This document shows positions 3,138-24,891 of a stretch of 64,000 bases of DNA, piece after piece (the stretch's first letter is position 1; each line of letters starts with the position of its first letter). The notes beneath the pieces are model-generated. The model ran no database searches. It worked only from the letters and a program-made list of their open reading frames with translations, and had not been told where the DNA came from. Both the position numbers and the translations under genes were made by a program. The stretch comes from Actinomadura syzygii (GTDB lineage Bacteria > Actinomycetota > Actinomycetes > Streptosporangiales > Streptosporangiaceae), in NCBI RefSeq assembly GCF_008085905.1, contig NZ_VSFF01000001.1:372001-436000 (forward strand). The letters are read 5' to 3'.

Positions 3138-3158
3138 ACCCGTCCCCGGCCTGACGTC

Positions 3159-3230: not shown

Positions 3231-3237
3231 CCGCTTC

Positions 3238-4605: not shown

Positions 4606-4761
4606 CCGACCTCCCGCTGGTGAGGTAATCACCGCCCAGATCGAAAACAGTCCTCCGAACAGCAGCGCAGCACCCAAGAAAGATCAAAGAAATGGTGCGC
4701 GGGGTTGCGGCCGTCCCAGAAGCTCCAGCGCTGAACTACACCGCTGTTAGCATTTCTGGTT

Positions 4762-5664: not shown

Positions 5665-5697
5665 CGCCCTGACGCCGGGCTTGGCAGGTCGCGCGGG

Positions 5698-6711: not shown

Positions 6712-6911
6712 CTTCACCTCTCGGGAGCCGGGGCTTGACGCCCCCACCATCCGGGCGTCCAGTGACGCCGGAGTTACGGGCCGGTAGCGGACCGTGTACT
6801 ACCGGCGACGATACGCAACGTGTCCGCGCGACTCCGCCCGGACACGGCGTCTTGGCCGGATCAGGAACCCGCCATGGCCATGTACGGCCCCGCCGCCGTC
6901 CCGGGTTCGCG

Positions 6912-8687
6912 CTACGCCCCGCCGTCGGCGGCGTCGTCCTCGGGACGGCTCTCCTTCGCCGACCTCGCCAGAAGAAGGACTCCGAAGAGCACCTTCCGGC
7001 TTCGCCGCAGCGCCCGCGGCACGCTGACCCGGCGTTCCGCACGTTTCGCCTCGGTAGCCGCGTCGGTAGCCGATTCCGGGGACGAGGCCGGAGCCGGGAC
7101 GGCCCGCCTCGACCGGGACATCCGGCGCGGGCGAGGCGCCCACGACGACCGAGGCGTACCAGCCGACCGAGGCATCCGTGACGACCGGGACATCAGGGGC
7201 GTCCCCAGCCGCGTCGGACGGCTCCGTCCGCGCAAGGTCTCCGACCGGCCGAGCTCCCACCTGCCCGACTCGCAAAGATGCGCCAGCTCCAGGACGGCCG
7301 CCGAGGCCAGCACCCGCGCGTCCTCGCCCTTCGCGAGGTCGCACAGCCGGGCCGCCTCGTTCACCGGGTCGCCGATCACCGTGTACTCGAACCGCTCCTC
7401 CGCGCCGATGTACCCGGCGACGACCGGTCCGGCGGACACGCCGATCCCCGCGTCCAGCGTCGGGACCTCGGCGCGCAGCCGCAGCGCCAGCTCGCGGGCC
7501 GCGCCGAGCGCCGCGCCCGCCGAGTCCTCCAGCCGGGTGGGCGCGCCGAAGATGGCGAGCGCCGCGTCCCCCTCGAACTTGTTGATCCAGCCGCCGTGCC
7601 GCGCGACCACGCTCACCACGACGCCGAAGAACCGGTTGAGCAGGCCGACGACCTCGTTCGGGCTCCGCGTGTCGGCGAGCCGCGTGGACCCGGTCAGGTC
7701 GACGAACAGGACGGCGACCTCGCGGGTCTCGCCGCCGAGCGTGATGTCGCCGTGCTCCAGCGCCAGGTCGGCGACCTCCTCGCCGACGTGGCGTCCGAAC
7801 AGGTCGCGGAGCCGCTCGTGGTCGCGGAGCCCGGCGACCATGTGGTTGAACCCGGCCTGCAACTGCCCGACCTCGCTCGCGTCGTACACGTCGACCTCGG
7901 TGTCGAGGTCGCCCCGCTCGACCCGCGCCATCCCCGTCCGGACGGCCCTGATCGGATCGGCGATCGCCCGCGTCGCCATGTAGGTGACGCAGCCGCCCGC
8001 GGCCAGCGCCGCGCCGCCCACGCCGAGGATCGTGATCGCGAGCTGGGTGACGTTGATGTCCGGCGCGGCGAGCGCGGCGACGGCGACGCAGATCAGCCCG
8101 GACACCGGGATCGCCGTCCCGAGCGTCCAGGCCAGCATCACCCGCGTCGTCACCCCCGGCAGCCGGACCGCCCGCGGCCGCTCCGCGGCGAGCACCAGCG
8201 CCGCCGCCGGACGCAGCAGCCGCTCCGACAGCAGGTAGACGATCGTGCAGGTGGTCGCCGCGCCGAGCAGGCAGGTCAGGCCGGTCTTGATCGCCAGCCG
8301 TCCGGTGAACAGGAGGAGGTCGAGCACCGCCCAGCCGAGGGCGCCGACCGTCCACAGCGCGCCGATGAGCTGGGTCAGCCGCAGCGGCCCCAGCAGGACG
8401 GCGCGCCGCTGCCGCCGGTCGGGCGTCCCGCCGTCCCGGACGAGCCGGACCACCGGCCGCCACAGCCGCAACCCGAGCAACAGCGCCACCGGCACCGCCA
8501 CCACCGGATATCCGAAGAACGCCGCCGCGTTCACGAGATGCGCGTGGTCGCGGTCGTCCAGCGGCGGGTCCGGGACGACGAACGTCGCGAACAGCAGCAC
8601 GACCAGCGACCCGACCGCGTTGGCCACGCCCACGACCACGAGCAGCACCCACCGCACGCGGATCTCGAGCATGCTTCGGCTGGTCAC
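6912..8687 (-). CDS. Membrane adenylate/guanylate cyclase with HAMP domain
   Basis: 591 residues. GTG 8687 has GGAGG six bases upstream and is preferred over longer in-frame starts. Six predicted TM helices (about 11-37, 58-75, 105-127, 133-153, 183-206, 214-236) are followed by a HAMP linker (237-290) and a complete class III cyclase domain (about 323-495): LFVDLTGST with D330, KFEGDAALAIFG with the second metal Asp, and IGDPVNEAARL with the transition-state Asn and Arg. This is the layout of mycobacterial Rv1318c-type adenylyl cyclases. The last 90 residues are Arg/Ser-rich and low complexity. With the cNMP-binding protein at 1.4 kb it could form a local cAMP signalling pair, though that link is speculative. 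Confidence 0.88.
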   Translation of the reverse strand: MTSRSMLEIRVRWVLLVVVGVANAVGSLVVLLFATFVVPDPPLDDRDHAHLVNAAAFFGYPVVAVPVALLLGLRLWRPVVRLVRDGGTPDRRQRRAVLLGPLRLTQLIGALWTVGALGWAVLDLLLFTGRLAIKTGLTCLLGAATTCTIVYLLSERLLRPAAALVLAAERPRAVRLPGVTTRVMLAWTLGTAIPVSGLICVAVAALAAPDINVTQLAITILGVGGAALAAGGCVTYMATRAIADPIRAVRTGMARVERGDLDTEVDVYDASEVGQLQAGFNHMVAGLRDHERLRDLFGRHVGEEVADLALEHGDITLGGETREVAVLFVDLTGSTRLADTRSPNEVVGLLNRFFGVVVSVVARHGGWINKFEGDAALAIFGAPTRLEDSAGAALGAARELALRLRAEVPTLDAGIGVSAGPVVAGYIGAEERFEYTVIGDPVNEAARLCDLAKGEDARVLASAAVLELAHLCESGRWELGRSETLRGRSRPTRLGTPLMSRSSRMPRSAGTPRSSWAPRPRRMSRSRRAVPAPASSPESATDAATEAKRAERRVSVPRALRRSRKVLFGVLLLARSAKESRPEDDAADGGA

Positions 8688-8737
8688 CTGCGCGCCTCCG
8701 GGGGGATGGAACCGCTCAGCACGGATCATCCCACGAC

Positions 8738-8777
8738 GCGAAATGCCCCGGCGGTGATCACCGTCGGGGCATTTCGC
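8738..8777. repeat. Near-perfect 40-bp palindrome between permease and cyclase genes
   Basis: Arms GCGAAATGCCCCG (8738-8750) and CGGGGCATTTCGC (8765-8777) flank a 12-bp perfect palindrome CGGTGATCACCG (8752-8763). The single non-match (8751 against 8764) is a G-T wobble, so the RNA forms a stem of about 18-20 bp with almost no loop. It lies just past the permease stop, so a terminator is likely, but neither side has a T-run. Confidence 0.7.
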
Positions 8778-8784
8778 CACGCGC

Positions 8785-10209
8785 TCAGGCGTGCGAGCCC
8801 TCCTCTGCCACGGCGACCTCGACCTCCGGGGCCGCCTGCGAGGCCCGCCGGACGAACGGCCACGCGGCCAGGATGAGCGCCACCCACGCGGCCATCACGT
8901 ACAGTGCGATCCGCGTGTCGTGCTCCCACGCGATCGTCACGGTGACGAACACGAAGAACGCCAGCACGGCCCAGTTGGTGTACGGCGCCCACGGCATCCG
9001 GTACGGCGCCTTCGGCAGCGCCCCGGACGCCGCCCGCCGCCGGTAGACCATGTGCGCGACCAGGATGACCGTCCACACCGCGATCGCGCCGCCGGTCGAC
9101 ACCGAGGTGATGTACTCGAACGCCTTCTCCGGCACCACCGCGTTGACCACGACGCCGATGCCCATGACCAGCGTCGAGATCACCACCGTCAGCACCGGGA
9201 CGCCCCGCCCGTTCAGGCGTCCGAGCGCCTTCGGACCGTCGCCGTTCACGCCCGCCGTCCGCAGCATCCGGGACGTCGAGTACAGCCCGCCCGCGTTGCA
9301 GGACGACAGCGCCGCCGTCAGCACCACGAAGTTGACGATGTCCCCGCCGCCCGGAATGCCGATCTTGTCGAACGCCAGGACGAACGGGCTCGCGCCGCCC
9401 TTGAACGCCGTCCACGGCACGACGGCCAGGATGACCAGCAGCGACCCGAGGTAGAACAGCGCGAACCGGAGCGGCAGCGCGTTGATCGCCCGCGGGATGT
9501 TCTTCTCCGGGTCCTTCGCCTCGCTCGCCGTCACCCCGACCAGCTCGACACCCAGATAGGCGAACATCACCATCTGCAACGTCATGATCGTCGCGCTGCC
9601 GCCCTCGGGGAACACGCCGCCGTGCGACCACAGGTTGCTCACCGCGGCCGTGTCCCCGGCGTCGCTGAACCCGAAGACCAGCACCCCGAGCCCGACCAGG
9701 ATCATCATCACGATCGCGGCGACCTTGATCATGGCGAACCAGAACTCCAGCTCGCCGAACAGCTTCACCGAGATCAGGTTCACCACGAACAGGACCAGCA
9801 GCGCTACCAGCGCCGTCTGCCACTGCTCGACGCCCGGCCACCACTTCTGGATGTAGGTGCCGGCCGCCGTCAGCTCCGCCATCCCGGTCGTCACCCAGAT
9901 GATCCAGTAAGTCCAGGTCGTGGCATAACCCCAGAACGGACCGAGGAACTCCCGGGCGTAACCCGCGAACCCCCCTTCCGCCCGCCGGTACGTCAGCAAC
10001 TCGCCGAGCGCCCGCATGACGAAGAACAGCGCGAGCCCGGCCACCGCGTACGTCAGGATCAGGCTGGGCCCGGCCTTGGCGATGTTCTCCCCGGCCCCGA
10101 GGAACAACCCGGTCCCGATCGTCCCGCCGATCGCGAGCATCTGGATCTGCCGGGTCCCGAGCCCTCGCTGGTAGCCTTCCGCGCTCTGGTCTGGGAGCTT
10201 TGCGACCAC
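8785..10209 (-). CDS. APC-family amino-acid permease
   Basis: 474 residues with 12 predicted TM segments. GTG 10209 has GGGAGG four bases upstream; longer frames lack this. The family signature GGTIGTGLFLGAG followed by AGPSLILTYAVAG is in TM1, and GELLTYRRAEGGFAGYA and YWIIWVTTGMAELTAAG follow. This is the AAT-type branch (GabP, ProY, LysP, AnsP), proton symporters for amino acids. The exact substrate cannot be read from sequence. The gene stands alone, followed by the long palindrome. Confidence 0.88.
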   Translation of the reverse strand: MVAKLPDQSAEGYQRGLGTRQIQMLAIGGTIGTGLFLGAGENIAKAGPSLILTYAVAGLALFFVMRALGELLTYRRAEGGFAGYAREFLGPFWGYATTWTYWIIWVTTGMAELTAAGTYIQKWWPGVEQWQTALVALLVLFVVNLISVKLFGELEFWFAMIKVAAIVMMILVGLGVLVFGFSDAGDTAAVSNLWSHGGVFPEGGSATIMTLQMVMFAYLGVELVGVTASEAKDPEKNIPRAINALPLRFALFYLGSLLVILAVVPWTAFKGGASPFVLAFDKIGIPGGGDIVNFVVLTAALSSCNAGGLYSTSRMLRTAGVNGDGPKALGRLNGRGVPVLTVVISTLVMGIGVVVNAVVPEKAFEYITSVSTGGAIAVWTVILVAHMVYRRRAASGALPKAPYRMPWAPYTNWAVLAFFVFVTVTIAWEHDTRIALYVMAAWVALILAAWPFVRRASQAAPEVEVAVAEEGSHA

Positions 10210-10379
10210 GCGGCCTCCCTCACATCTCCGGCCGCCCCTCGGGAGCGGCGCAACCCTCCGGTCACGCGCCGCTGCGCGCAACCCGGACAGACTAGGAGTC
10301 CACGCCACAACACGAAACACACCCCGCCAACCGGTATCTGCCCGGTATCTCACCGTTACGCCTCTCCGGCGATAACGAG

Positions 10380-10409
10380 TTGGCGCACCGTTGGGCCATC
10401 GCGTATGCT
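10380..10409 (+). promoter_or_regulatory. Probable promoter of the tRNA-Asp/tRNA-Phe pair
   Basis: TTGGCG (10380-10385) and TATGCT (10404-10409) are spaced by 18 bases, about 50 bases ahead of tRNA-Asp. Position and spacing fit a housekeeping sigma promoter. Confidence 0.45.
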
Positions 10410-10461
10410 CTCGGACGTCGTCAAGACACCCCTTCGAGGCCAGCCAGGCTCGGAAACGCAA

Positions 10462-10539
10462 GGTCCTGTGGAGCAGCTAGGAGTGCTCGCCACCCTGTCA
10501 AGGTGGAGGCCGCGGGTTCAAATCCCGTCAGGACCGCCA
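10462..10539 (+). tRNA. tRNA-Asp (GTC)
   Basis: A full cloverleaf is visible: acceptor GGTCCTG with CAGGACC, D-stem GAGC/GCTC, anticodon stem CCACC/GGTGG around CTGTCAA (anticodon GTC), variable loop AGGCC, T-arm GCGGG-TTCAAAT-CCCGT, discriminator G, and an encoded CCA. It pairs with tRNA-Phe 20 bases downstream; Asp-Phe is a common actinobacterial tandem. Confidence 0.97.
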
Positions 10540-10559
10540 GACGTGCGTTCGCACGTCCT

Positions 10560-10633
10560 GGGCAGGTAGCTCAGTCGGTACGAGCGTCCGCCTGAAAAGC
10601 GGAAGGTCGGCGGTTCGACCCCGCCCCTGCCCA
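10560..10633 (+). tRNA. tRNA-Phe (GAA)
   Basis: Acceptor GGGCAGG pairs with CCTGCCC, D-stem GCTC/GAGC, anticodon stem TCCGC/GCGGA around CTGAAAA (anticodon GAA), T-arm GGCGG-TTCGACC-CCGCC, discriminator A; CCA is not encoded. It is complete. Its 3' part, from the anticodon loop onward, is repeated three more times downstream (11.65, 15.12 and 16.10 kb), which marks it as the integration anchor of the island to 16.5 kb. Confidence 0.97.
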
Positions 10634-10653
10634 CCTCACTGACCACCACAAAG

Positions 10654-10681
10654 ACCCCGGAGCCACACGGTCCGGGGTTTT
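10654..10681 (+). terminator. Terminator of the tRNA pair
   Basis: ACCCCGGA (10654-10661) pairs with TCCGGGGT (10671-10678), followed by a T-run. A closely similar hairpin follows the tRNA-Phe fragments at 15.12 and 16.10 kb, showing that terminator and tRNA end were copied as one unit. Confidence 0.8.
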
Positions 10682-10826
10682 CGTCTTGACGGCAACAGAC
10701 GATGGACCACGGCGGACGGTCGGAAGCTCACAGGATCTAGCTCGCCCTCGACCAGGTCCCCAAGGATTCAAGACTGGACAGACTCAGTTTCAAGACTTAC
10801 CGTCGATGGCATATATCATCAACCAT

Positions 10827-11195
10827 ATGTTCGAGATCGAGATGGAGCCTGAGGTCGCCACGTGGCTGGACACCTTGACGTTCGCTCAGTATCAGCGCGT
10901 CATGCGCAACGTGGACGACTACCTGGTCGACCGAGGTGACATGCTCGATGGAGACCACACCAAAGCACTACGCGACGGCGTCCGCGAACTGCGCTTCCAT
11001 CTGGAGGACACCGCCTGGCGGATCACCTACTGGCTACCGACCGGCCCCGACCGCTTGATCGTGTTACTAACGGTTTTCCAAAAGGTCCGCAACGACGCGC
11101 AACCACGGGACGTGGAGCGAGCGGTGAACGCACGACGGGTCTGCGAGACGTCCCACGCAGGACCGCCAGACCATGTCTATGAGAGGAGCGAGTGA
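10827..11195 (+). CDS. HigB/RelE-like toxin of a toxin-antitoxin pair
   Basis: About 122 residues from ATG 10827 (MFEIEMEPEVATWLDTLTFA); an in-frame ATG at 10806 adds seven residues, and neither has a clear ribosome site. The GVRELRFHLEDTAWRITYWL and LIVLLTVFQKVRNDA segments match the core strands of the HigB/Gp49-like RelE superfamily, which cleave mRNA on ribosomes. The stop overlaps the start of the downstream HTH gene (TGATG), the toxin-first order typical of higBA. It is the first payload after the intact tRNA-Phe. A truncated copy of the pair lies at 16.2 kb. Confidence 0.8.
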   Translation: MFEIEMEPEVATWLDTLTFAQYQRVMRNVDDYLVDRGDMLDGDHTKALRDGVRELRFHLEDTAWRITYWLPTGPDRLIVLLTVFQKVRNDAQPRDVERAVNARRVCETSHAGPPDHVYERSE

Positions 11196-11494
11196 TGGCC
11201 GGGCACAGCAAGTGGAAGCTCGACCGTGAGCGGCGACTGCGCGAAGGAGCACCCATCCACCCCGAGTACGACCTGGCTGGCCTTGACCTCCGGCTCGGCG
11301 ACATGGTCCGCGAGCGCCGCCGGGAACTGGGACTCACCCAAGCAGAGGTAGCCGAACTCGCAGGCATCACACAGCCTGCGTTGTCCCGTATCGAGGGCGG
11401 TGGAGGCGTGCCGACCCTGGCGATGCTGGACCGAATCGCCAAGGCCATGCACACCACATTCACCATCACCGTTGGAGAACACGTAGCAGCCTGA
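11195..11494 (+). CDS. XRE-family HTH antitoxin (HigA-like)
   Basis: 99 residues from ATG 11195, overlapping the toxin stop by one base; GAGAGGAGCG supplies the ribosome site. The HTH is at about residues 38-90 (MVRERRRELGLTQAEVAELA then GITQPALSRIEGGGGVPTLA). In higBA modules this protein binds the toxin and represses the shared promoter. The last residues (TFTITVGEHVAA) are the beta-strand tail usual for the family. Confidence 0.85.
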   Translation: MAGHSKWKLDRERRLREGAPIHPEYDLAGLDLRLGDMVRERRRELGLTQAEVAELAGITQPALSRIEGGGGVPTLAMLDRIAKAMHTTFTITVGEHVAA

Positions 11495-11650
11495 CCCCAA
11501 GAACCTCGGGCGGCTCCGAGTCGACCCGGTGTCGCAGGCCAGGTCAGCTGCCTGCAGCAGCGGGAACCAGCCCGTCATCAGCGCACGTCGCCAACCGTCC
11601 AACCTTGACCAACGCTCCCCCAGCGGGAGCGTTGCCATAGTTGTAGAGCA

Positions 11651-11684
11651 GAAGGTCGGCGGTTTTACCCCCCGCCCACCTCAC
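11651..11684 (+). repeat. Degenerate tRNA-Phe 3'-end copy (copy B)
   Basis: AGAAGGTCGGCGGTTTTACC and then CCCGCCCACCTCACCA correspond to the tRNA-Phe variable loop, T-arm and 3' end with mismatches and a small deletion. It is the most decayed of the copies. It is followed by a terminator-like hairpin and then the STAND NTPase gene. Confidence 0.7.
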
Positions 11685-11693
11685 CAAACAGCA

Positions 11694-11734
11694 GAACGGC
11701 CCCTGACTGGCCTGTTCATGGTCAGAGGCCGTTC
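11694..11734 (+). terminator. Hairpin after tRNA-Phe copy B
   Basis: GAACGGCCCCTGAC pairs with GTCAGAGGCCGTTC (one mismatch), followed by TTGTCT. Its sequence differs from the hairpins after the other tRNA-Phe copies but it holds the same place in the unit. Confidence 0.55.
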
Positions 11735-11980
11735 TTGTCTGTCCCAGGCATGCCCCAGCTGTCGCCAGCGGCCTACGGTCGGCCCCGCGGTTGCCGAAAG
11801 CGAGGCCAAGATTCGGTGACACGTCCGTTCGCCGTTGATGGGGCCGGGCTGGAAGGTTTCCGATTTCATCCCATGCTGGTGGTGAAGCAAGGCAGGCTGA
11901 TGAGTTCGGGCGGAGGCACGAATCAGGCCTTTCCCGACAACTCTGGTCCGGATCACCGCAGATGCAGGAGGTACAGATCC

Positions 11981-14536
11981 GTGGGTGAGCCGCTGGACGC
12001 GACCGACACGTGGGCGCGGGCTTTGCGAGCGCTGTATACGGCAGCGGGCAAACCGACCAGCGCGACAATAGGGCGGCTGGGCGCTGCCCAGGTTCCGCTG
12101 ATTAAGGTGACGTCTTCGTCGTGGAGTGACTGGCTAAACGGCAAGAACGTTCCCTCGGAGGTCAGGACCGCGCGGTGGCTGGTGAGGTTTCTGCGCGACC
12201 GAGCGAACCATGAGACACCGGAGTATGTGACGGAGCCTGATGGTTGGTGGGATATGGCGTGGCGGCGAGCTAGGGCCGAACGGCAGAGGCGAAGGGGTGG
12301 CCGATCGACCGCGGCTCATCCTGCACGGTCGCAGGCGGTCGTGGAGCAAGTCCGGGTCGGAGTTGTTCCGCGACCAGCGGATTGTTATCAGGATCGGCAA
12401 GCGGCCATCCGGCTGAACGCAACGCCGGATGAGAACGGCCCGGTGGCCCTGACACAAGCCGCGACCTACGTGCTGGTGGGGATGGGCGGGGTCGGGAAGA
12501 CTCAGCTGGCTGCTGCCCACGCCCGCAGCGCCTTGCAACGGGGGGTAGAAGTTCTGTTATGGGTAAATGCCGCAACCCGCGACGACGTGATATCTACCTA
12601 TGCGGATGCTGCACTGCGCCTTCGCCTGCCGTTGGCGGACCGCGACGATCCTGAACGGGCGGCGCGGGAGTTCATGACGTGGACGGAGACCACGACACAA
12701 CGATGGCTGGTGGTGCTGGACGATGTGCGCAGCCCAGGTGCCCTGCGGGGCTTGTGGCCAGCGGCCGCCACCTCACTGGCCGTTGGGCAGGTAGTGGTCA
12801 CCACCCGGCTCCGCGACTCCGCTCTTGCGGCCGTTGAGCGGAGCATGGTCGAGATCGGCACCTTTACTGAGAAGGAGGCCTGCTCGTATCTGTCGGCGAA
12901 GCTCGAAGAGCAAGCTATCGACACTGTTCAGGTCAGCGCTCTCGCACGAGATTTGGGCTATCTGCCGCTAGCGTTGGCACAAGCCGCCACGTATATCTGC
13001 AACGCTGACATCGACTTTGCAACATACCGTCGACTGCTAGCGACTCGACTGCTGTCCGGTGCGTTGCCGAGCGAAATGTTCCTGCCTGATGATCACGAGC
13101 GAATCGTTGCGGCCACCTGGGAATTGTCCATTGATCAAGCCAATAGGGCTGAACCAGCCGGGCTGGCCCGGCCAGTTCTCTATCTTCTCAGCGTCCTGGA
13201 TTCTGGCGCCATTCCTCAGTTTGTCTTGGCAAGCCCTCCTGCCCTGGAGTACCTGGCCGACTACATGCCCCACATTCCGCAGACAAATAGCATGAGCGGC
13301 GAATTAGTTGATGAGGCGCTGCGGGTGCTGCACCGCCACTGCCTGATCGATCACGATCGCACATCGACCTATCGCGAGGTCCGCGTTCACCAATTGGTAC
13401 AGCGCGCCACTCGCGACAATATAGCTGCGCAGGTCGGCTTCGGCTCCAAACTATTCGCCAACATAGTCGACGTCGCCGCCTATTCCTTGTTGTCGGTGTG
13501 GCCCTCTGTGGAGCGTGACCAACTTGGCCAGGTCCTGCGCGCAAACACAGCTGCTCTCCATCAGAATACCGACAGCGTTCTCTGGAGTTCCACCATCGGC
13601 GCCTACAACGTACTTGGGTACGCTGCTAGCAGTTTGGGTAAGAGAGGTCAGGTCGCCGCCGCCGTTACCGCTCACACCGACCTCCTCCTTTCTGCTACCC
13701 GGCACCTAGGCGCCAACGACATAGGCACCTTGTCTCTTCGCCACGCGTTGGCATATTGGCAGGGGAAAGCGGGTGATATGGCGAGCGCTACAGTTGCATT
13801 CGAGGAGCTGCTAGTCGATATGCGGCGAGTGTTGGATCCTGACGACCACCATTTCCTGTCCGTTCGCCACAACCTGGCGGATTTGATGGGGAGAAGTGGC
13901 GATGTGGCGAGCGCTGTTGCTGCATTGGAGGAGATACTGGTTGATATGGAGCGCCTGTTAGGTCCCGACCATCGCGACACTCTTACGAGCCGTGGGGTCC
14001 TGGCACAGTGGCGTGGGCTGGCGGGTGATGCGGTGGGTGGGCTAGCTGCTACTGAAGATTTACTGATCGAAATAGACCGGGTGCTGGGCCCCAATGATCC
14101 CAATACCCTGGCGGTCCGCCACAGCATGGCGGTTTTGATCGGCCAGACAGGTGACACGGCGAGGGCCGTTGCCTCATTTAAGGATTTGTTAGCCGATCGA
14201 CTGCGGGTTTTGGGGCCCGACCATCCCGACACCTTTGATACTCGCCACAACCTGGCACATTGGCGGGGAGTGTCACGGGATGCGACCGGAGCTGCCGCCA
14301 CTTTCGCAAGCTTGTTAGCTGACGAGATGCGAGTCCTGGGCCCCGCACATATCAAAACCATAACCACTCGATATTGTCTGGCAGGCTGGCGGGGTGAAGC
14401 AGGAGATGCGATAGGGGCGGCCGCCGCTTTCGAAGAGTTGCTGACCGAGGTGATGAAGCTCCCCGGTCCCAAGCGCGACGTCGCCTCTATTCGCAACGCC
14501 CTTGCATATTGGCAAAAAAAGGCTGAACAAGAGTAG
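11981..14536 (+). CDS. STAND (NB-ARC-type) NTPase with N-terminal HTH-like region and C-terminal TPRs
   Basis: 851 residues from GTG 11981, with AGGAGGT eight bases upstream. Residues 5-70 resemble the HTH-like N-terminus of actinobacterial signal NTPases (WARALRALYTAAGKPTSATI, SSWSDWLNGKNVPS). The NTPase has Walker A GMGGVGKT (167-174), Walker B WLVVLDDV (about 242-249), a sensor TTRLRDS and an ARC2-like RVHQLVQ near 470. The C-terminal third carries seven TPR-like units of about 42 residues with the consensus RVLGPDHPDTL-RHNLA. Such NLR-like proteins are ligand-sensing switches, and several act in phage defence or regulated cell death. No effector domain is evident, so the output is unknown. 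GC content is visibly lower and codon choice looser than in neighbours, which fits transfer. Confidence 0.85.
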   Translation: MGEPLDATDTWARALRALYTAAGKPTSATIGRLGAAQVPLIKVTSSSWSDWLNGKNVPSEVRTARWLVRFLRDRANHETPEYVTEPDGWWDMAWRRARAERQRRRGGRSTAAHPARSQAVVEQVRVGVVPRPADCYQDRQAAIRLNATPDENGPVALTQAATYVLVGMGGVGKTQLAAAHARSALQRGVEVLLWVNAATRDDVISTYADAALRLRLPLADRDDPERAAREFMTWTETTTQRWLVVLDDVRSPGALRGLWPAAATSLAVGQVVVTTRLRDSALAAVERSMVEIGTFTEKEACSYLSAKLEEQAIDTVQVSALARDLGYLPLALAQAATYICNADIDFATYRRLLATRLLSGALPSEMFLPDDHERIVAATWELSIDQANRAEPAGLARPVLYLLSVLDSGAIPQFVLASPPALEYLADYMPHIPQTNSMSGELVDEALRVLHRHCLIDHDRTSTYREVRVHQLVQRATRDNIAAQVGFGSKLFANIVDVAAYSLLSVWPSVERDQLGQVLRANTAALHQNTDSVLWSSTIGAYNVLGYAASSLGKRGQVAAAVTAHTDLLLSATRHLGANDIGTLSLRHALAYWQGKAGDMASATVAFEELLVDMRRVLDPDDHHFLSVRHNLADLMGRSGDVASAVAALEEILVDMERLLGPDHRDTLTSRGVLAQWRGLAGDAVGGLAATEDLLIEIDRVLGPNDPNTLAVRHSMAVLIGQTGDTARAVASFKDLLADRLRVLGPDHPDTFDTRHNLAHWRGVSRDATGAAATFASLLADEMRVLGPAHIKTITTRYCLAGWRGEAGDAIGAAAAFEELLTEVMKLPGPKRDVASIRNALAYWQKKAEQE

Positions 14537-15120
14537 ATCCGTTTGGTAGAAAATTCACCGCGGGACCATGATGCACGAAATAGAAAGTGAATGCGATGCG
14601 GGCGAACTGAAGCGGCATCCGGCCAGCCAGATCTAGCAGTCCTTGGAATCGGGAATCGCAGCATCGCACAGCAGAAGCTGAGCCTGGAGAGTCCAGGGCA
14701 TCAGTTGGTTTGCCTGGCCAAAGAACCGGTCACCGAGTCAGCATCCTCAGATAGCCAAGCGCCTTCGAACCAGGGGGCCACGATCGACGGGAACATCGAG
14801 GCTTGCCTGAGTTGCCAGCCATTGCTAAGGGTCACCTAAGACGCGACCCGGCGAAGAGCTCCGCTCACGAAGACGCCAGGCTCGTAGACAAACGGAGGGC
14901 TAGGACGCGGCACACCCCATCGGCATCTCAGCGGAGACGGCCATAATTCATTTTGGCTCTGCCCTGAGATTCCGCATGTCCAGAGCACCTTTTACCTGGT
15001 AGAGGGTGCTGAGGATGACGGCAACGTTGACGGCAATGCCGGCCATCATCGGCATAACGGGTGCTTGTCAGGCACCGTCCCACCTCGGCGGACGAAACGA
15101 CGGCAGTGTGGTTGTTACTT
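14537..15120. other. Non-coding island spacer
   Basis: No supportable gene. The last roughly 60 bases, before the tRNA-Phe fragment at 15121, resemble the bases before the copy at 16097: both run from CCTCGG through a GTTG-ACTT stretch into CTGAAAA. That looks like the arm of related integrated elements rather than coding sequence. Confidence 0.45.
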
Positions 15121-15163
15121 CTGAAAAGCGGACGGTCGGCGGTTCGACCCCGCCCCTGCCCAC
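15121..15163 (+). repeat. tRNA-Phe 3'-end copy (copy C)
   Basis: Identity with tRNA-Phe starts at the anticodon loop CTGAAAA and continues through variable loop, T-arm and acceptor strand with one mismatch. The 5' half of the tRNA is absent, so it is not a functional tRNA. Tyrosine integrases that use tRNA genes commonly cross over in the anticodon loop, so this looks like an attachment-site duplication. Confidence 0.85.
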
Positions 15164-15183
15164 ACCATCTGACCAGTCGAAAC

Positions 15184-15208
15184 ACCCCGGAGCCACATGG
15201 CCCGGGGC
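15184..15208 (+). terminator. Hairpin after tRNA-Phe copy C
   Basis: CCCCGGAGCCACATGGCCCGGGG folds like the terminator of the real tRNA-Phe and is nearly the same sequence, so it was duplicated with it. The T-run has been lost. Confidence 0.55.
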
Positions 15209-15287
15209 CGTTGTGTTCGACGGCAACATCCATCGTCAAGAAGCGGACAGTCGACCCTCAGTATGAGTTAAAGGTTATATTGATGAG

Positions 15288-15663
15288 GTGTCCTGGGACG
15301 CCGTCCTTCTCGAACCGGTCGAGAGCTGGTTCCTCAACGTTGTGTGAGTCCGAAGTGGACACCGAAGCGTTGATCGAGCAAGCCATCGACAGGCTGGCTG
15401 AGGTTGGGCCGACACTGGGACGGCCGCTCGTCGACACTCTGGGACACAGCGGGCTGCGCAACCTCAAGGAACTGCGCCCTGGCAGCCGAGGGAGATCGGA
15501 GATCCGCATGCTGTTCGTCTTCGATCCGGACCGCGCCGCGATCTTCCTGGTAGCCGGAGACAAGGCTGGGCAGTGGTCCCGCTGGTACGACGACGCGATC
15601 CCGCTGGCCGAAGCCCGTTACACCGAGTACCGGGCAGCGAAGGACAAGGAGGCGGGGCGATGA
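15288..15663 (+). pseudogene. RelE/Gp49-like toxin gene with an apparent frameshift
   Basis: From GTG 15288 the frame reads VSWDAVLLEPVESWFLNV, a typical N-terminus for this toxin family, then hits TGA at 15345. The family body resumes one frame over (CESEVDTEALIEQAIDRLAE, LGRPLVDTLGHSGLRNLKEL, RGRSEIRMLFVFDPDRAAIF) and runs to TGA 15661-15663. One extra base within about 15339-15345 would explain it. Alternatives are a sequencing error, or an intact shorter protein from ATG 15284 with an unrelated N-terminus. The stop overlaps the antitoxin start (ATGA). Confidence 0.6.
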
Positions 15664-15989
15664 GCACCGGACGCCGCTGGCAGGACATCAAGGCCGAAGC
15701 ACACCGTCGCAACCCCGAACTGGCCGCTCCCGAACGTCAGGCCCAGGCACGCGCCGAGCTGGACGCCTACGTCGCAGGCCACCACCTCAAGGAACTCCGC
15801 AAAGCCATCGGCAAGACACAAGCCGAAGTCGCCCAGATTCTCGGCGTCAGCCAATCTCGCGTCTCACAGATCGAGAACGGCAACCTCGAAGCCATGGAGC
15901 TGGAGACTCTTCGCGCCTACGCCACCGCCCTCGGCGGACACGTGGACATCACCATCAGCGTCGGCCCCCACTCCATCAAGGTCGCCTGA
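15660..15989 (+). CDS. XRE-family HTH antitoxin
   Basis: 109 residues from ATG 15660, with AGGAGGCGGGGCG upstream and a 4-base ATGA overlap with the toxin frame. The HTH lies at about residues 43-95 (LKELRKAIGKTQAEVAQILG, VSQSRVSQIENGNLEAMELE). Length and layout match antitoxins paired with Gp49/RelE toxins. The antitoxin frame is intact although the toxin frame appears broken, which is the tolerated order of decay for such pairs. It differs from the 11.2 kb antitoxin and was probably acquired separately. Confidence 0.82.
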   Translation: MSTGRRWQDIKAEAHRRNPELAAPERQAQARAELDAYVAGHHLKELRKAIGKTQAEVAQILGVSQSRVSQIENGNLEAMELETLRAYATALGGHVDITISVGPHSIKVA

Positions 15990-16096
15990 CAGCACCGCCC
16001 GCTGACGGCACCGACACCAACCAAGCAGCACCACGGGCGCACATCGGGCACCGTTTGACCTCGGTTGACGGGGTACCCGCAGGGCGGTTGCCACTT

Positions 16097-16140
16097 CTGA
16101 AAACGAAGGTCGGCGGTTCGACCCCGCCCCTACCCACCTC
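16097..16140 (+). repeat. tRNA-Phe 3'-end copy (copy D)
   Basis: CTGAAAA, then AAGGTCGGCGGTTCGACCCC and GCCCCTACCCACCTC. It matches tRNA-Phe from the anticodon loop on, with a short deletion in the anticodon stem and one substitution in the acceptor. The upstream flank resembles that of copy C. Confidence 0.82.
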
Positions 16141-16151
16141 CTGAACAGCGC

Positions 16152-16182
16152 AAAAGCCCCGGAGCCATGTGGCCCGGGGCTT
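16152..16182 (+). terminator. Hairpin after tRNA-Phe copy D
   Basis: AAGCCCCGG and CCGGGGCTT arms with a short loop, followed by TTCATCTT. It closely matches the terminator after the intact tRNA-Phe. Confidence 0.65.
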
Positions 16183-16189
16183 TCATCTT

Positions 16190-16460
16190 GACTGCGACGG
16201 ACGTTGGACCGCAGCGGACGCTCGGGAGCCCACCGAAGCTGGCTCGCCCCCGACCAGGGCCCCATGCTCGATGAAGATCACACCAAAGCATTGCGCGACG
16301 GCATCCGCTCGGCGACATGGTCTGCGGGCGCCGCCGGGAACCACCCATGCAGAGGTGGTCGAGCTCGCAGGCATCACACAGGCTGCGTTGTCCGGCATCG
16401 GGGACGGTGGAGGCGTGCTGACCCTCACACGCTTTATCGGCGATATTCAGGCTGGGCATT
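16190..16460 (+). pseudogene. Relic of the 10.8-11.5 kb HigBA-like pair
   Basis: Three blocks match the first toxin-antitoxin locus in order. The leader (GGACGTTGGACCGCAGCGGA) matches about 10700-10760. ATGCTCGATGAAGATCACAC onward (16264) matches toxin interior 10942-10983. CGGCGACATGGTCTGCGGGC through GGTGGAGGCGTGCTGACCCT matches the antitoxin HTH at 11292-11425. The toxin N-terminus, and the toxin C-terminus with the antitoxin N-terminus, are deleted, and no frame spans the remainder. It is a dead copy in the last unit of the array. Confidence 0.75.
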
Positions 16461-17038
16461 CCTTGACAAGGTCGCATTAGTGGATGCCGAGGATGGAATG
16501 CTGCCGAGGCATGCACCTTTTGCATGAGGCTGATCTAGCTCATGAGATTCATGGCCGAGAGCGGGTCGCGGTGTCCAGCCAATCTAATTTGGGGCGGTTT
16601 GATGTAAAGGTGTAGGGGTCTGACGCCGCCGTTGAGGGGCGGTCATCAATCTCCTGGCTCGCGGCCGATCCCATATGCCGACACGATTACTAGGGCCCGG
16701 GACGGTCGCCGTACGTGGTTGGGCGGGCGAAAGCGGTGCGATCGCTACCGCGGGGCTTCCGGTGCTCTGACCTTGGACGGGCCTGTGCTCCGGGTTTCTT
16801 GCCCTGACTTCCTGCAGCCAGCTCGCGGGTTGGGTGTCTGGGTGGGCCGAGGTGGTTGTTCCGCCTCATGAGGTTGGGTGTCCGGGCCCGGGTGTGCCGA
16901 TCGGTCCGAACGTAAAGCGGCCGTTGTTGTTGGTCAGGGTTTCGTCGCGTGGGGTGGCAGGCGGGTTCGCCGAACATGGCCGGGGTAATGATCGCCGCGG
17001 TCCGTCCAGACCGGCTGATCGATTCAGTGGAGATCTGA
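16461..17038. other. Gene-free segment at the right end of the island
   Basis: No supportable gene or recognisable insertion sequence. Several G/T-rich stretches are present, but the frames lack family resemblance. Base composition returns toward the surrounding chromosome across this stretch, so it may hold the island's outer boundary. Confidence 0.4.
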
Positions 17039-18118
17039 ATGCGAAAAACCATAGGTATTCTCATGGCCGCTCTTGCCCTGCTGGCAGGAATGGCCCCGAC
17101 CGGTCCCGCGTCCGCCGGGACCCCGGACCGCGCCGACGGATCGGGCTGGCGCACCCGGTTCACACAGACCGATCTGGTCTCCGACATTCCGGGGCGGGCG
17201 CGTCTTCAGGATCCCAAGCTCGTCAACCCGTGGGGTCTGGCGCTTAGCCCGACCGGGCCGTTGTGGGCCGCCAACAACGGCACCGGTGTCGCCACCGTGT
17301 ACGCCGGCGGCGCGGGTGGCGTGACGAAGCAGGCGCTGGAGGTCACCGTCGAGGGCGGCGCGCCCACCGGAGAGGTCTTCAACGACACCGCCGACTTCGC
17401 GGTGAACGGCGCGCCGGCCATCTTCATCTTCAGCAGTGAGAGCGGCGCGATCACCGCATGGAACCGCAACACGGGGACCACCGCGGTCCGCGTGGCGGGG
17501 GCGCCCGGCGCCATCTACAAGGGACTGGCGCTGCTGCGCACCCGCCATGGAGCGTTCCTGCTGGCGACCGACTTCCACAACAGACGTATCGATGTCTTCG
17601 ACGGTAAGTTCCGGCGCCTCAGGCTGCCCAGTGGGAGCTTCGACGACCCGTCGATCCCACGGGGCTTCGCACCGTTCAACGTCGCCGTCCTCGGCGACTC
17701 CGTGTTCGTCACCTACGCCAAGCAGGACGCGGACGCCGAGGACGACGTCCCCGGCCCCGGGCTCGGCTTCGTCGTGAAGTACCGGCAGTTCGGCCGCTCC
17801 CATCACCGCTTCGCCTCGCGCGGTCCGCTGAACGCGCCGTGGGGGCTGGTGATCGCGCCCCGATCGTTCGGGGACTTCGCCGGGGAAGTCCTCGTCGGCA
17901 ACTTCGGTGACGGCCGGATCAACGCCTTCACCCCGCATGGCCGTTGGCGGGGCGCGCTGCGCGGGCCGAGCGGCCGCCCGATCGAGATCGACGGCCTGTG
18001 GGCGCTTCTGCGCGGGACGCAGACGACCGGTGGCACCGACGCCGTCTGGTTCTCGTCCGGCCCGAACGACGAGACGCACGGCCTCGTCGGCCTGCTGCGC
18101 AAGGCCCGCCTGCACTGA
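17039..18118 (+). CDS. Secreted TIGR03118-family protein
   Basis: 359 residues. A signal peptide occupies residues 1-26 (MRKTIGILMAALALLAGMAP, cleavage near ASA). The body has the repeated strands and motifs of the TIGR03118 family (KLVNPWGLALSPTGPLWAAN, PAIFIFSSESGAITAWN, LNAPWGLVIAP, GEVLVGNFGDGRINAF), probably a secreted beta-propeller of unknown function. GGAG lies upstream of ATG 17039. A strong 10-bp terminator hairpin follows at once. Confidence 0.82.
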   Translation: MRKTIGILMAALALLAGMAPTGPASAGTPDRADGSGWRTRFTQTDLVSDIPGRARLQDPKLVNPWGLALSPTGPLWAANNGTGVATVYAGGAGGVTKQALEVTVEGGAPTGEVFNDTADFAVNGAPAIFIFSSESGAITAWNRNTGTTAVRVAGAPGAIYKGLALLRTRHGAFLLATDFHNRRIDVFDGKFRRLRLPSGSFDDPSIPRGFAPFNVAVLGDSVFVTYAKQDADAEDDVPGPGLGFVVKYRQFGRSHHRFASRGPLNAPWGLVIAPRSFGDFAGEVLVGNFGDGRINAFTPHGRWRGALRGPSGRPIEIDGLWALLRGTQTTGGTDAVWFSSGPNDETHGLVGLLRKARLH

Positions 18119-18130
18119 ACACGGGCGCGA

Positions 18131-18153
18131 CCAGCGGCCGAACCGGCCGCTGG
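18131..18153. terminator. Bidirectional terminator hairpin
   Basis: CCAGCGGCCG and CGGCCGCTGG form a perfect 10-bp stem with a 3-base loop, 12 bases after the TIGR03118 stop and facing the convergent MarR gene. Confidence 0.65.
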
Positions 18154-18320
18154 TCCGTCCCCACTTTCGAGCGGCCCGTCCAGCGGTCCGAAGGTCGGGA
18201 CGACGGGGGGATCAGTGACGGCGACGTCGGTCTCCAACGGCACTGGTCTCTCAAGCTGTCATCGGGTGGCCGGTCCGCGGCATGGGAATGCGCGGTGTGC
18301 GACCGCGTGGGGTGTTGTCT

Positions 18321-18794
18321 TCAGTTGGCCGGTAGGGACTTGAGTAGGCGTTCGACCAGGGTGTTGAGGGTCTGGAGTTCGGTGTCGGTCAGGGTGGAGA
18401 ACCAGTCGGCGACCGCGTTGTGGTCTGCGGCGTCGCGGCCGCGCCAGTACTGGTCGTTGGTCTCGGTGGCGATGAGGCGACGGCGGCGGCGGTCGGACGG
18501 GTCGGGTTCGACGCGCAGGAACTCTTTGCGGGTCAGGGCCGCTACCAGTTGGGCGGCGTTCTGGTGGGTGGTGCCCATGGCGTCGGCGGCCTCGCTGAGA
18601 GACGGTTGCCCGAGCGCGGTCACCACGGTGAGCAGCGCGGCCTGCTGAGTGGTGAGCCCGTCGGCGCGTAGCCGCTGGTCCATCAGACGGTGCAGCCGCT
18701 GTCCCGCCAGCAGCAGTATCCGGAAGGCGCGCACCGACGGCTCAAGGTCCGAGTCGGGCCCGATGTCGAACACGGACTTCCCTGGCACGTCCAT
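18321..18794 (-). CDS. MarR-family transcriptional regulator
   Basis: 157 residues from ATG 18794; ATG 18821 would add nine residues but puts the start between the arms of the operator. The winged HTH is seen in LTTQQAALLTVVTALGQPSL, SEAADAMGTTHQNAAQLVAA and the wing VEPDPSDRRRRRL. MarR proteins are dimeric repressors released by small ligands. It diverges from a glycosyltransferase gene, and a 10-bp inverted repeat lies between them, so it probably represses both. Neither start has a ribosome site, so the mRNA may be leaderless. Confidence 0.82.
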   Translation of the reverse strand: MDVPGKSVFDIGPDSDLEPSVRAFRILLLAGQRLHRLMDQRLRADGLTTQQAALLTVVTALGQPSLSEAADAMGTTHQNAAQLVAALTRKEFLRVEPDPSDRRRRRLIATETNDQYWRGRDAADHNAVADWFSTLTDTELQTLNTLVERLLKSLPAN

Positions 18795-18796
18795 GT

Positions 18797-18833
18797 GCAA
18801 TATATTACCTGATTGCGTCATCCAATATATTGC
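18797..18833. promoter_or_regulatory. MarR-type operator in the divergent promoter
   Basis: GCAATATATT (18797-18806) and AATATATTGC (18824-18833) are perfect 10-bp inverted arms 17 bases apart, in an A/T-rich island inside GC-rich DNA. Their centre lies between the two divergent starts, so one bound regulator could silence both genes. Confidence 0.6.
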
Positions 18834-18848
18834 GGAGGTCGGAGAGCC

Positions 18849-20129
18849 GTGATCTGTCTGCTTCCCAACTGCGCGTACCTGTCAGAGACCACGCGGATGC
18901 TGGAGATCCACCGGGCGCTGCGCGAGCGCGGTGCGGCGGTCCGGATCGCCACGCACGGCGGCGTGCACGAGAGCGCGCTGCGGGCGGCGGGCGTCGAGTA
19001 CGACTTGGTCGGGCAGCCGATGAACGCCGAGCGCAGCGCCGCGTTCGTCCGTTCCGCCGTAGGGCTCGGACCCGTCGACCAGAGCATGTACACCGACGAT
19101 GAGCTGCGGTCTTACGTGCTCGCCGAGGCGGACTACTTCAGCGCTAACCGCGTCACCGTAGCGGTGACCGGCTTCACGTTGACCGCGTTGCTTTCAACGC
19201 GGCTGGCCGGCATACCGCTCGTCACCGAGCACGCGGGCAGTTTCGTGCCCCCGGTATTCGAGCGCGGCCTGGTGCCCGCCCCGGGTAGTTTGCCGCGGCT
19301 GCTCGGTGGGACGCTGCCACGCTGGGCCATTAACTGCGCGATCCCGCGACTGCGGTACCACTGCGCGGGCTTCAACCGGATCGCCGCCGAGTTGGGCGTC
19401 GAGGGTGTGCCCAGCCTGCTCGCGCTGTTGTTGGGTGACCTGACGCTGGTTCCGGAGATCCCGCAAGTCGTGGGGATTTCCGCGCCGGATATGGCGGCCT
19501 GGCGCCCGCGCGGCAGGTCCCGTTATCGGCAAGGCACCACGCTGCGCTACACCGGCCCGCTGTACGCCCATCTTGATATCCCGGTACCAGAGCGGGTCGC
19601 CTCGTCCCTCCACCTGCCCGGTCCGGTCATCTACGTCGCGCTCACTTCGACCGGACCTGAGCTGATCCGCGATGTCATCGGTGCTCTGGCCGGGGTGGAC
19701 GCGCGCATCCTGGTCGCGGCGACCGTCCACGACCTGGCAGACCTCGCCTCCGACCGGGTGATGGTCGAGTCCGTCCTGCCCAGCCACCTGGTCATGCCCC
19801 ATGTGGACCTCGCGGTCGTGACCGGCGGGCAGGGCAGCATGCAGACCGCGATGGCCTCCGGGACGCCTGCCCTGGGCATCCCACTCCATTCCGAGCAGGA
19901 CCTCAACGTCGCATTGTTGGAACGCCACGGCGCCGCCCACCGGATCCCGCCACGTCACGCCGGAACCGCCAAGCTGGCCACACTGGCACGGCTGATGCTC
20001 GCCGACGACCGCTACCGGCAAGCGGCGCAGCGAATCCAGCGGCTCTACGATGACGTCGACGGCCCCGCACGCGCCGCCGAAGCCATTTTGCAACTCGCCA
20101 CGGCACCCTCCCCGATTCAGGGACGGTGA
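18849..20129 (+). CDS. GT-B fold glycosyltransferase (UGT/MGT type)
   Basis: 426 residues. GTG 18849 follows GGAGGT by nine bases. The N-terminus (ICLLPNCAYLSETTRMLEIH) is the acceptor-side Rossmann fold. The C-terminal donor-side half contains VTGGQGSMQTAMASGTPALG and PLHSEQDLNVALLERHGAAH, the glycine-rich segment and E-Q pair of GT1-type enzymes such as macrolide glycosyltransferases. It probably moves a nucleotide-activated sugar onto a small hydrophobic acceptor. With MarR control and a methyltransferase downstream, a detoxification or natural-product-tailoring role is a reasonable guess. Confidence 0.8.
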   Translation: MICLLPNCAYLSETTRMLEIHRALRERGAAVRIATHGGVHESALRAAGVEYDLVGQPMNAERSAAFVRSAVGLGPVDQSMYTDDELRSYVLAEADYFSANRVTVAVTGFTLTALLSTRLAGIPLVTEHAGSFVPPVFERGLVPAPGSLPRLLGGTLPRWAINCAIPRLRYHCAGFNRIAAELGVEGVPSLLALLLGDLTLVPEIPQVVGISAPDMAAWRPRGRSRYRQGTTLRYTGPLYAHLDIPVPERVASSLHLPGPVIYVALTSTGPELIRDVIGALAGVDARILVAATVHDLADLASDRVMVESVLPSHLVMPHVDLAVVTGGQGSMQTAMASGTPALGIPLHSEQDLNVALLERHGAAHRIPPRHAGTAKLATLARLMLADDRYRQAAQRIQRLYDDVDGPARAAEAILQLATAPSPIQGR

Positions 20130-20133
20130 CCGC

Positions 20134-20673
20134 ATGCGCACACCGTCCGCAACGCTGGGCAGCGCCCTGTTCTTCGCCGCCGCCCCGGGTGTCGTGGCCG
20201 GCCTGACGCCCTTGTGGCTGACCGGCTGGCGACCGCGACACCATCTCCTGTGGCCGGTGCCGCTGGGCATCATCGGGATCGTCCTGGTCACGGCGGGCAG
20301 TCTCGTACTCGTCCACGCCTTCGTCCGGTTCGTGACCGAAGGACTCGGCACGCCCGCCCCTATCGCCCCGACCCGACATTTGGTCGTCGGCGGGCTCTAT
20401 CGGCATGTACGCAACCCCATGTACCTGGCGGTCATCACCACGATCGCCGGACAGACGCTCATCCTCCAGCGCGGCATACTCCTGTGGTATCTCGCCACCG
20501 CGACCGCCGTCATGGTCGCCTTCGTGCATTTGTACGAGCAGCGCGCGCTCCGGGCCCGTTTTGGCACCCAATACGAGCAGTACGCCCAAGCCGTACCAGG
20601 CTGGCTGCCCAGGCTCCGCCCATTCCACCCGGACGATCACCCCGGCCACCCCGGTCACCCTGCCGCAGACTGA
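20134..20673 (+). CDS. Isoprenylcysteine carboxylmethyltransferase-family membrane methyltransferase
   Basis: 179 residues from ATG 20134, four bases after the glycosyltransferase stop, so co-transcribed. Four or five TM helices. The conserved C-terminal SAM-binding segment is present: GLYRHVRNPMYLAV and later EQRALRARFGTQYEQYAQAV, the RNPxY and E...FG..Y..Y signatures of the ICMT/PEMT family. Bacterial members methylate lipids or small molecules and the substrate is unknown. The hairpin at 20719-20749 ends the operon. Confidence 0.82.
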   Translation: MRTPSATLGSALFFAAAPGVVAGLTPLWLTGWRPRHHLLWPVPLGIIGIVLVTAGSLVLVHAFVRFVTEGLGTPAPIAPTRHLVVGGLYRHVRNPMYLAVITTIAGQTLILQRGILLWYLATATAVMVAFVHLYEQRALRARFGTQYEQYAQAVPGWLPRLRPFHPDDHPGHPGHPAAD

Positions 20674-20718
20674 AATCACCCACGATGTGCACCTGTTCTC
20701 GGACGGGTTCGTTCGGTA

Positions 20719-20749
20719 CGGCCGACGGCAGTCGGTCTGCCGTCGGCCG
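20719..20749. terminator. Bidirectional terminator hairpin
   Basis: CGGCCGACGGCAG and CTGCCGTCGGCCG form a perfect 13-bp stem around a 5-base loop, between the convergent methyltransferase and esterase genes. Confidence 0.7.
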
Positions 20750-20786
20750 CGGGGTGAAGCATCGACCGTTTACGCCGCTCCCCTGG

Positions 20787-22451: not shown

Positions 22452-22659
22452 GACGGCTCCCGTCTCGTTGAATCGACTGCCTCTACAGTCGCCGGGACCG
22501 GCACACGGGCACAGGAGCCTTTCCTCTAGATCTCCGGTAGACCTAGCTCTACCTTTCCTGCCCGACCTGCGGTGAAGTCGCATTGGGAAACGCAGAGTGC
22601 GGGACGGCGCACTGACGCCAATGACGGCTTCCGGCCCTCGCGGGGCGGGCGGGTAGTCG

Positions 22660-24849: not shown

Positions 24850-24891
24850 TCTAACCGTTGTAAGTCGTTTGATCAGTTAGAAGGATCCCTG

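Follow-up and report, generated by a model that had tools for sequence, protein, structure and literature searches.

The phenylalanine transfer RNA gene (tRNA-Phe) of Actinomadura syzygii, lying in a 64,000-nucleotide stretch of DNA (hereafter the window; contig C11 of the 9.7-Mb genome G000 of our set), is followed by three downstream copies of its own 3′ end, two of which begin at the anticodon loop. These copies, which we call cores, bound four units, two of which are about 1 kb long and hold one toxin-antitoxin (TA) pair each. We consider it likely that the array arose by successive site-specific accretion of the remains of conjugative elements and of very small TA cassettes resembling cis-mobilizable elements (CIMEs). 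The order of the same packets differs among relatives, and this suggests a small cassette system borrowing its recombinase from larger mobile elements. A sequence-only reading of the window had proposed an array of tRNA-Phe 3′ copies with payloads, stacked by several insertions at a single attachment (att) site, with small TA cassettes as units. Core searches and Pfam confirmed the array, and the comparisons below support both the stacking and the cassettes.

TA cassettes recur between tRNA-Phe cores in related species

A tRNA-Phe gene was present in all 65 congeneric genomes, 49 of which gave more than one tRNA-Phe match at E 1e-7 or better, a few of these matches being other tRNA genes. We fetched and mapped the regions around tRNA-Phe, its fragments and the TA matches, and the counts of fragments and units given below refer to these fetched regions. 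Of 86 fragments, 69 begin at tRNA position 32 or 33, in the anticodon loop. An element that brings a tRNA 3′ end and crosses over there would leave such fragments (compare the actinomycete elements in tRNA 3′ ends of PMC3218068). The relatives share no fixed, identical array, since the sets of units vary even among close species.

Counted by hand, as units that are not independent in descent, 23 of the 27 units of at most 1212 bp between consecutive cores hold a TA-type pair; leaving aside four units from regions fetched for a TA match, the share is 20 of 23. Seventeen belong to the kind found in unit 3 of the window (TA3; 958-990 bp), two to the kind of unit 1 (TA1) and four to a kind named TAX. 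The latter joins a protein whose DUF6247 match falls just short of the cut-off to a small protein without family, and from its layout TAX is probably a TA pair. The other four small units contain an indistinct open reading frame (ORF; G071, G063, G055) or a relic of the integrase int2 described below (G064). Of the 17 TA3-type units, nine follow the intact tRNA immediately and eight stand deeper in arrays. Their layout is nearly constant, and 16 could be aligned end to end. The ratio of nonsynonymous to synonymous substitution rates (dN/dS) over 120 pairs of these aligned cassettes was 0.08 for the antitoxin and 0.06 for the toxin (downstream 100 codons); both TA genes are therefore kept under purifying selection. 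Frame-broken toxin genes nonetheless occur in the window, G047, G062 and G069.

Searching the genus with the TA3 antitoxin, we obtained 28 matches including its own, 23 of them at 90% identity or above. Within 1.5-kb flanks, a core was seen on both sides of 17 matches, on one side of six and on neither side of five, and 22 of the 23 close matches had at least one core (a weak one in L081). For TA1, at least one core accompanied five of the six matches at 90% identity or above.

Most cassette ends are of the type of one integrase lineage

The larger units carry tyrosine recombinases of three lineages, all with a PF00589 match in Pfam. In whole elements int1 (464 aa) lies on the minus strand about 120 bp past the left core; int2 (340 aa) lies on the plus strand immediately past the core; intD shows about 30% likeness to int1, and its match begins 1.3-2.2 kb from the core. 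Among the 25 units longer than 7 kb (7.9-30.5 kb), 19 have one of these integrases by the thresholds that we set (int1 in 11, int2 in four, intD in four).

The 80 bases preceding the distal cores, the right arms, sort into four classes, A to D, of which B is related to A. With arm classes and integrase thresholds that we chose on the same data, integrase lineage and arm class agreed in every one of the 23 classified units (int1 with A or B in 13, int2 with C in six, intD with D in four), a further three of the 26 units being unclassified. Integrase-less units shorter than 5 kb showed class A in 22 and class B in 13 cases, so that 35 of 41 are int1-type; none had class C or D, and six were unclassified. 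Twenty of the 23 TA-type cassettes carry A or B arms, and three (G006, G050, G073) have unclassified arms. At the opposite end, past the hairpin, the motif ACGGCAAC occurred in 16 of 23 TA-type cassettes as well as in 7 of 15 int1 units, the other int1 units carrying near variants by eye; it was found in none of the seven int2 units and none of the four intD units. Thus, both ends of most cassettes are of the int1 type.

Most cassettes have core copies on both sides together with int1-type arms, and their ORF lists contain no recombination or transfer genes. Neither int1 nor int2 had a match in window positions 7001-27000, in agreement with the sequence-only reading, which had noted no integrase in the array. 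The window array therefore does not enclose an integrase of its own between att sites, as actinomycete integrative and conjugative elements (AICEs) do; the larger units of relatives do have integrases. Of these, int1 and int2 are not integron-type enzymes, scoring 20.9 and 28.1 against an integrase_gron cut-off of 265.

Homology is largely bounded by the cassette

Profiling seven cassette pairs, we found that homology was lost at the distal core in five. The exceptions were G078/G047, which continue into a common int1 relic, and G045, where a distal core is lacking. Upstream DNA is unlike in three of the pairs, and in all of these homology starts at the core. Between G014 and G043 the cassette body is 97.0% identical and a permease 91.4%; the flanks are 79.5% identical over 300 nt before the core and 43.8%, with nothing recognisable, over 300 nt after. 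The sister species G002 and G047 are 97.7% identical upstream of the core and 84.0% inside the cassette.

Trees were compared by the approximately unbiased (AU) test. G007 carries two TA3 copies that are not sisters (AU p 8e-6), and the TA3 of G043 groups with G014 rather than with its sister G056 (AU p 3e-4; this pair was chosen for testing after the distances had been seen). G002 and G047 as sisters were rejected more weakly (p 0.026), and the window group G000/G069/G052 was compatible with a clade (AU p 0.06).

Similar TA pairs lie beside other tRNA genes in other genera

Outside Actinomadura, 3 of 18 scanned loci showed the TA pair in a tRNA-fragment setting. In Actinoallomurus spadix (L194), tRNA-Thr and a 3′ copy of it flank the TA, whose antitoxin is 85% identical; downstream follow a double int1 left-end motif, a relic of int1 (72% over 43 aa) and a third tRNA-Thr copy. 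Acrocarpospora catenulata (L190) has four tRNA-Gly 3′ copies, and the TA stands between two of them, here with a different arm; Planobispora takensis (L198) has it between tRNA-Val and a tRNA-Val fragment. The TA of the other 15 loci showed no tRNA fragment next to it, though a full tRNA gene lies within about 4 kb in L192, L203 and L207. On plasmids and phages we found no close relatives of the TA3 antitoxin, all matches being below 60% identity. The 1.4-kb unit neighbouring the L190 pair contains, by eye, a PemK/MazF-like ORF.

Anatomy of the array in the window

The only tRNA genes that ARAGORN found in the window are tRNA-Asp (10462-10539) and tRNA-Phe, and the latter is the sole full tRNA-Phe match in the window genome. 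The remaining features are collected in Table 1.

Table 1. Parts of the tRNA-Phe array, in window positions
Feature	Position	Strand	Basis
Intact tRNA-Phe	10560..10635	+	ARAGORN
Core/att segment inside tRNA-Phe, anticodon loop to 3′ end	10592-10634	+	Fragment start positions
Unit 1 left end: hairpin and TGACGGCAACA motif common with int1-type element ends	10639..10762	+	
Unit 1 (TA1) toxin, Gp49/HigB-like PF05973	10806..11195	+	E 7.6e-10
Unit 1 (TA1) antitoxin, HTH_3	11195..11494	+	E 5.4e-14
Right arm, class B (int1 type)	11551..11640	+	z 7.5
Degenerate tRNA-Phe core copy	11641..11683	+	
Unit 2 left end, unlike hairpin; intD-type likeness judged by eye	11684..11760	+	
Unit 2 NB-ARC and TPR (STAND-type) NTPase	11981..14536	+	PF00931 E 4.1e-11, PF13424 E 2.5e-18
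Right arm, class A (int1 type)	15031..15120	+	z 10.7
tRNA-Phe core copy, 98% over 43 nt, starts CTGAAAA	15121..15163	+	
Unit 3 (TA3) Gp49-like toxin gene with a frameshift near its start	15283..15663	+	E 5.3e-18, downstream piece only searched
Unit 3 (TA3) antitoxin, HTH_3	15660..15989	+	Pfam
Right arm, class A	16007..16096	+	z 22
tRNA-Phe core copy, 91%, small deletion, starts CTGAAAA	16097..16138	+	
Unit 4: left end, hairpin and decayed TA1 pieces (toxin 16251-16308, antitoxin 16307-16425)	16141..16425	+	

The sequence-only reading had placed fragments at 11651, 15121 and 16097, the last two at the correct coordinates and with the CTGAAAA start that it gave for two fragments; its first fragment belongs to a weaker, degenerate copy that begins near 11641 (about 70-75% identity, own-genome E 9e-5). 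A 32-nt piece of the core gave three window matches with at most three mismatches, not including this weak copy, vs 0 expected from 100 shuffles. Elsewhere in the window genome, the core search returned only two matches: one of 75% on contig C8, at the level of unlike tRNA genes, and one of 30 bases to the sequence preceding tRNA-Phe. The genome's own fragments hence lie only behind tRNA-Phe and are not scattered repeats.

The arms preceding the cores at 15121 and 16097 resemble each other, as had been noted before, and the arm preceding 11641 is related to them. A hairpin stands 3′ of all four cores, CCCCGGAGCCA...CCGGGG being common to three, as the earlier reading had it. Its description of the hairpins as terminators fared less well: a simple terminator scan flagged, among the hairpins, only the unlike one near 11718, and terminator finds in the region (5 vs 3.7 expected) are no more than chance, leaving the hairpins as putative terminators.

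The payloads described earlier were recovered as a Gp49/HTH_3 pair, an NB-ARC and TPR protein, a second pair and a relic of the first; the frameshift in the unit-3 toxin gene had been missed. By Pfam, a Gp49/HigB-family toxin gene adjoins an HTH antitoxin gene, the layout of HigBA-like type II TA pairs, and NCBIfam antitoxin models score below cut-off only. Against PADLOC models of anti-phage nucleoside triphosphatase (NTPase) systems, unit 2 matched no family. The earlier reading had taken all four units as one kind; unit 2, with an intD-like left end and an int1-type class A right arm, joins remains of two elements, and we rejected it as a cassette. The unit-4 relic is nearer to window unit 1, in its left end as well as its toxin and antitoxin pieces, than to TA1 copies of other species. 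The names HigBA, STAND, HicBA, PemK/MazF and 'csp' (for a small gene) are our presumptive labels. Beyond the array, the gene at 17039-18118 is tentatively labelled TIGR03118; Pfam gave no match to it.

Other cargo seen at tRNA-Phe cores

A block of about 2.5 kb with a DEAD-box RNA helicase gene and, by eye, a small cold-shock-like ORF lies behind a tRNA-Phe core in L037 (G001), L119 (G044), L164 (G061), L064 (G018), L171 (G056) and L139 (G064). It is 90-93% identical across species and stands several times directly before a TA3 without toxin start. Other units carry a DndB-like protein (L055 of G010, 2026-3321), a second NB-ARC/TPR protein (L129 of G054, 3807-6545) or a DUF4365 protein (L144 of G069, 5665-6801). 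In L185, HicB-like ORFs (by eye) at 1902-2678 and 6455-8573 end at tRNA-Phe cores, and one HicA-like start runs into a core copy, as if an insertion had cut the gene; the unit at 480-1902 holds, by eye, an additional Gp49-like/HTH pair. A small ORF (DEAEASGR...RRVTAEQDRDALARLIEYDADPFEVELYEL) recurs shortly before distal cores, at the right ends of L053, L054, L129, L172 and L185, and may be the final gene of a family of elements. Away from the cores, G005, G043 and G044 each have two long rpoB genes, and G007 has a second, shorter rpoB.

Discussion

We propose that the array was built by successive integrations at tRNA-Phe, with crossover within the 43 nt that run from the anticodon loop to the tRNA 3′ end. 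An incoming element would remake the tRNA 3′ end, carry its own hairpin and displace older units outward. The recombinase for units 1, 3 and 4 would be the int1-type tyrosine integrase of larger elements, which appear AICE-like by size, integrase and tRNA target. Units 1 and 3 would then be integrase-less cassettes of about 1 kb, that is, very small CIME-like elements, in the order core, hairpin with arm motif, toxin, antitoxin, right arm, next core. Unit 4 would be an older TA1 cassette in decay; unit 2 is a chimeric relic of two elements. Integrase action through a circular intermediate is presumed, and the integrase may act either in trans or by accretion beside a whole element. The toxins would be active as such, and the TA pair probably holds a landed cassette by addiction. 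Since each landing would replace the 3′ end of the genome's only full tRNA-Phe, arrays would record the order of insertion.

Several observations weigh against this proposal. Six of the 25 units longer than 7 kb have no integrase match, and the closest int1 relative in the whole window genome is just 38% identical; with no close int1 there, its cassettes are probably stuck at present. Cores were missing within the fetched 1.5 kb from four of the five TA3 relatives below 90% identity (one of the four, in G057, sits about 1.2 kb behind tRNA-Phe, beyond the fetched flank), from 7 of 7 TA1 relatives below 90% and from 13 of 17 TAX matches, the other four having a core. The TA families therefore occur outside cassettes too. 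TA1 may also be plain cargo, as in L120 of G045 (oriented 2560-4605), where it has a tRNA-Phe core on one side and int1 on the other, and no core copy separates it from the integrase gene; this TA1 in an int1 element possibly marks cassette origin or capture. No excised circle was seen. No proven empty site was found among the 65 tRNA-Phe stretches. Of these, 28 showed no fragment in the same stretch: 19 have an integrase match, four of the other nine are too short, and the stretch of G070 starts with a gene known from inside int1 elements. The empty sites that the sequence-only reading looked for in relatives thus come down to four candidates, G011, G023, G040 and G048. In G078, a TA3 cassette flanked by two cores (L157, C1:533874-534937) lies about 1.9 Mb from tRNA-Phe if the chromosome is circular and about 50 kb from rpoB; the distance from tRNA-Phe to rpoB varies widely between genomes. 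We rejected this copy as proof of transposition, because an array split by rearrangement is equally likely, and it may be a piece split off in that way.

A vertically inherited ancestral array, reshuffled solely by homologous (RecA) recombination at repeated cores and hairpins and with no site-specific mobilisation of cassettes, seems improbable to us. It draws on the identity correlation between TA3 and gyrB (r 0.53, 119 pairs), by which much TA3 history is vertical; the TA3 of G006/G073 and of G007b/G020/G062 also follow the species tree, and together these findings mean that residence is often long. This comparison used 17 of 27 TA3 antitoxin matches. It left out G001, G044 and G061_L164 (block in the toxin region), G003, G012, G023, G061_L161 and G080 (cores not distinct on both sides), G055 (contig end) and the diverged second copy of G062, as well as pairs with 1500 or fewer common gyrB columns; G047 has no full gyrB. 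An independence of TA3 identity from species, suggested by an r near 0 from mixed markers and a set with one pair lacking common columns, was dropped once gyrB alone had given r 0.53. The closeness of the window relic to window unit 1 is likewise what local duplication would give. Reshuffling by RecA does not fit the two non-sister TA3 copies of G007 or the grouping of G043 with G014, nor the same core being accompanied by three distinct integrase lineages with matching arms, nor the same TA at tRNA-Thr and within a tRNA-Gly fragment array in other genera.

That the small units are independent deletion remnants of larger elements, retaining only an addictive TA and never moving themselves, is a better competitor, though we still hold it to be rather unlikely. 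CIMEs are defined as deletion remnants (PMC5704250, PMC7563491). The cassettes share their ends with int1 elements, TA1 lies inside the int1 element of G045, and decayed integrase relics are common; no series of intermediates accompanies these hints of deletion from an integrative and conjugative or mobilizable element. Independent deletions would scatter the ends, so the constant size and layout of the 17 TA3-type units speak against this explanation, as does the G014/G043 likeness that the cassette bounds. We regard as very improbable that the fragments persist through a function as tRNA-derived RNA or terminator modules and not as recombination sites. Distal cores, which are of no use as tRNA, are indeed more conserved (mean identity 0.917, 7 of 16 exact) than the bases just before them (0.59-0.67), a figure inflated by their detection through tRNA likeness; we count this conservation in favour of our own proposal too. 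Integrase genes adjoin the cores, however, arms are lineage-specific and arrays vary among close species.

The sequence-only reading knew of no description of such a stepwise build-up, but the build-up itself is not new. In the Streptococcus papers (PMC5704250, PMC7563491), accretion at gene 3′ ends and att-bounded, integrase-less CIMEs are described, classical CIMEs measuring 1.2-13 kb and gene-less microCIMEs 130-220 bp; tandem accretion (also PMC3146451) and tandem AICEs (PMC3218068) are likewise published. Like CIMEs, units of the window type are att-bounded, lack integrase and transfer genes and stand in tandem at one gene's 3′ end. Unlike them, they measure about 1 kb, hold one TA pair and recur as the same cassette in many species, in other genera and at other tRNAs. 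The ssrA islands of Dehalococcoides (PMC3146451) are also tandem and bounded by RNA gene 3′ copies, and 15 of them have no integration module; they differ in their serine recombinase, dehalogenase cargo and larger size. The tandem AICEs of Frankia and Streptomyces share an actinomycete tyrosine integrase, tRNA 3′ ends and tRNA remnants usable as sites, and differ in being whole elements rather than TA cassettes (PMC3218068). Clusters of attC sites lacking integron integrases (CALIN arrays) and miniature inverted-repeat transposable elements (MITEs), treated as hitchers in PMC11389934, are similarly non-autonomous and rely on another element's recombinase. In contrast to these, our cassettes have a tRNA 3′ end core in place of attC or terminal repeats, a phage-type integrase and a two-gene cargo.

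We found no paper on TA-only tRNA cassettes in the open-licence literature. Within that literature, a TA-only cassette of about 1 kb, present in many species, with ends tied to one integrase lineage and found beside other tRNAs in further genera, is apparently new. The elements pMEA100 and pMEA300 use tRNA-Phe as well. In SGI1, a TA pair reportedly maintains the integrated island; unlike our cassettes, that pair is one gene set within a large island.

As a tentative extension, which we think quite possible, the cassettes may form a family of two-gene hitchhikers: recombinase-less TA cassettes of about 1 kb, moved in trans as single units by int1-type integrases, switching tRNA target with the helper (tRNA-Phe in Actinomadura, tRNA-Thr in Actinoallomurus) and holding on by addiction. 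Such dependence on a named integrase lineage would make the exchange between helper and hitchhiker testable in Streptomyces. If true, the family would be the counterpart, in site-specific recombination, of MITEs and integron cassettes, its boundary being a tRNA 3′ end. It would provide a very small integrative element with an addiction module as its sole cargo, and it would account for the accumulation of TA pairs beside tRNA genes.

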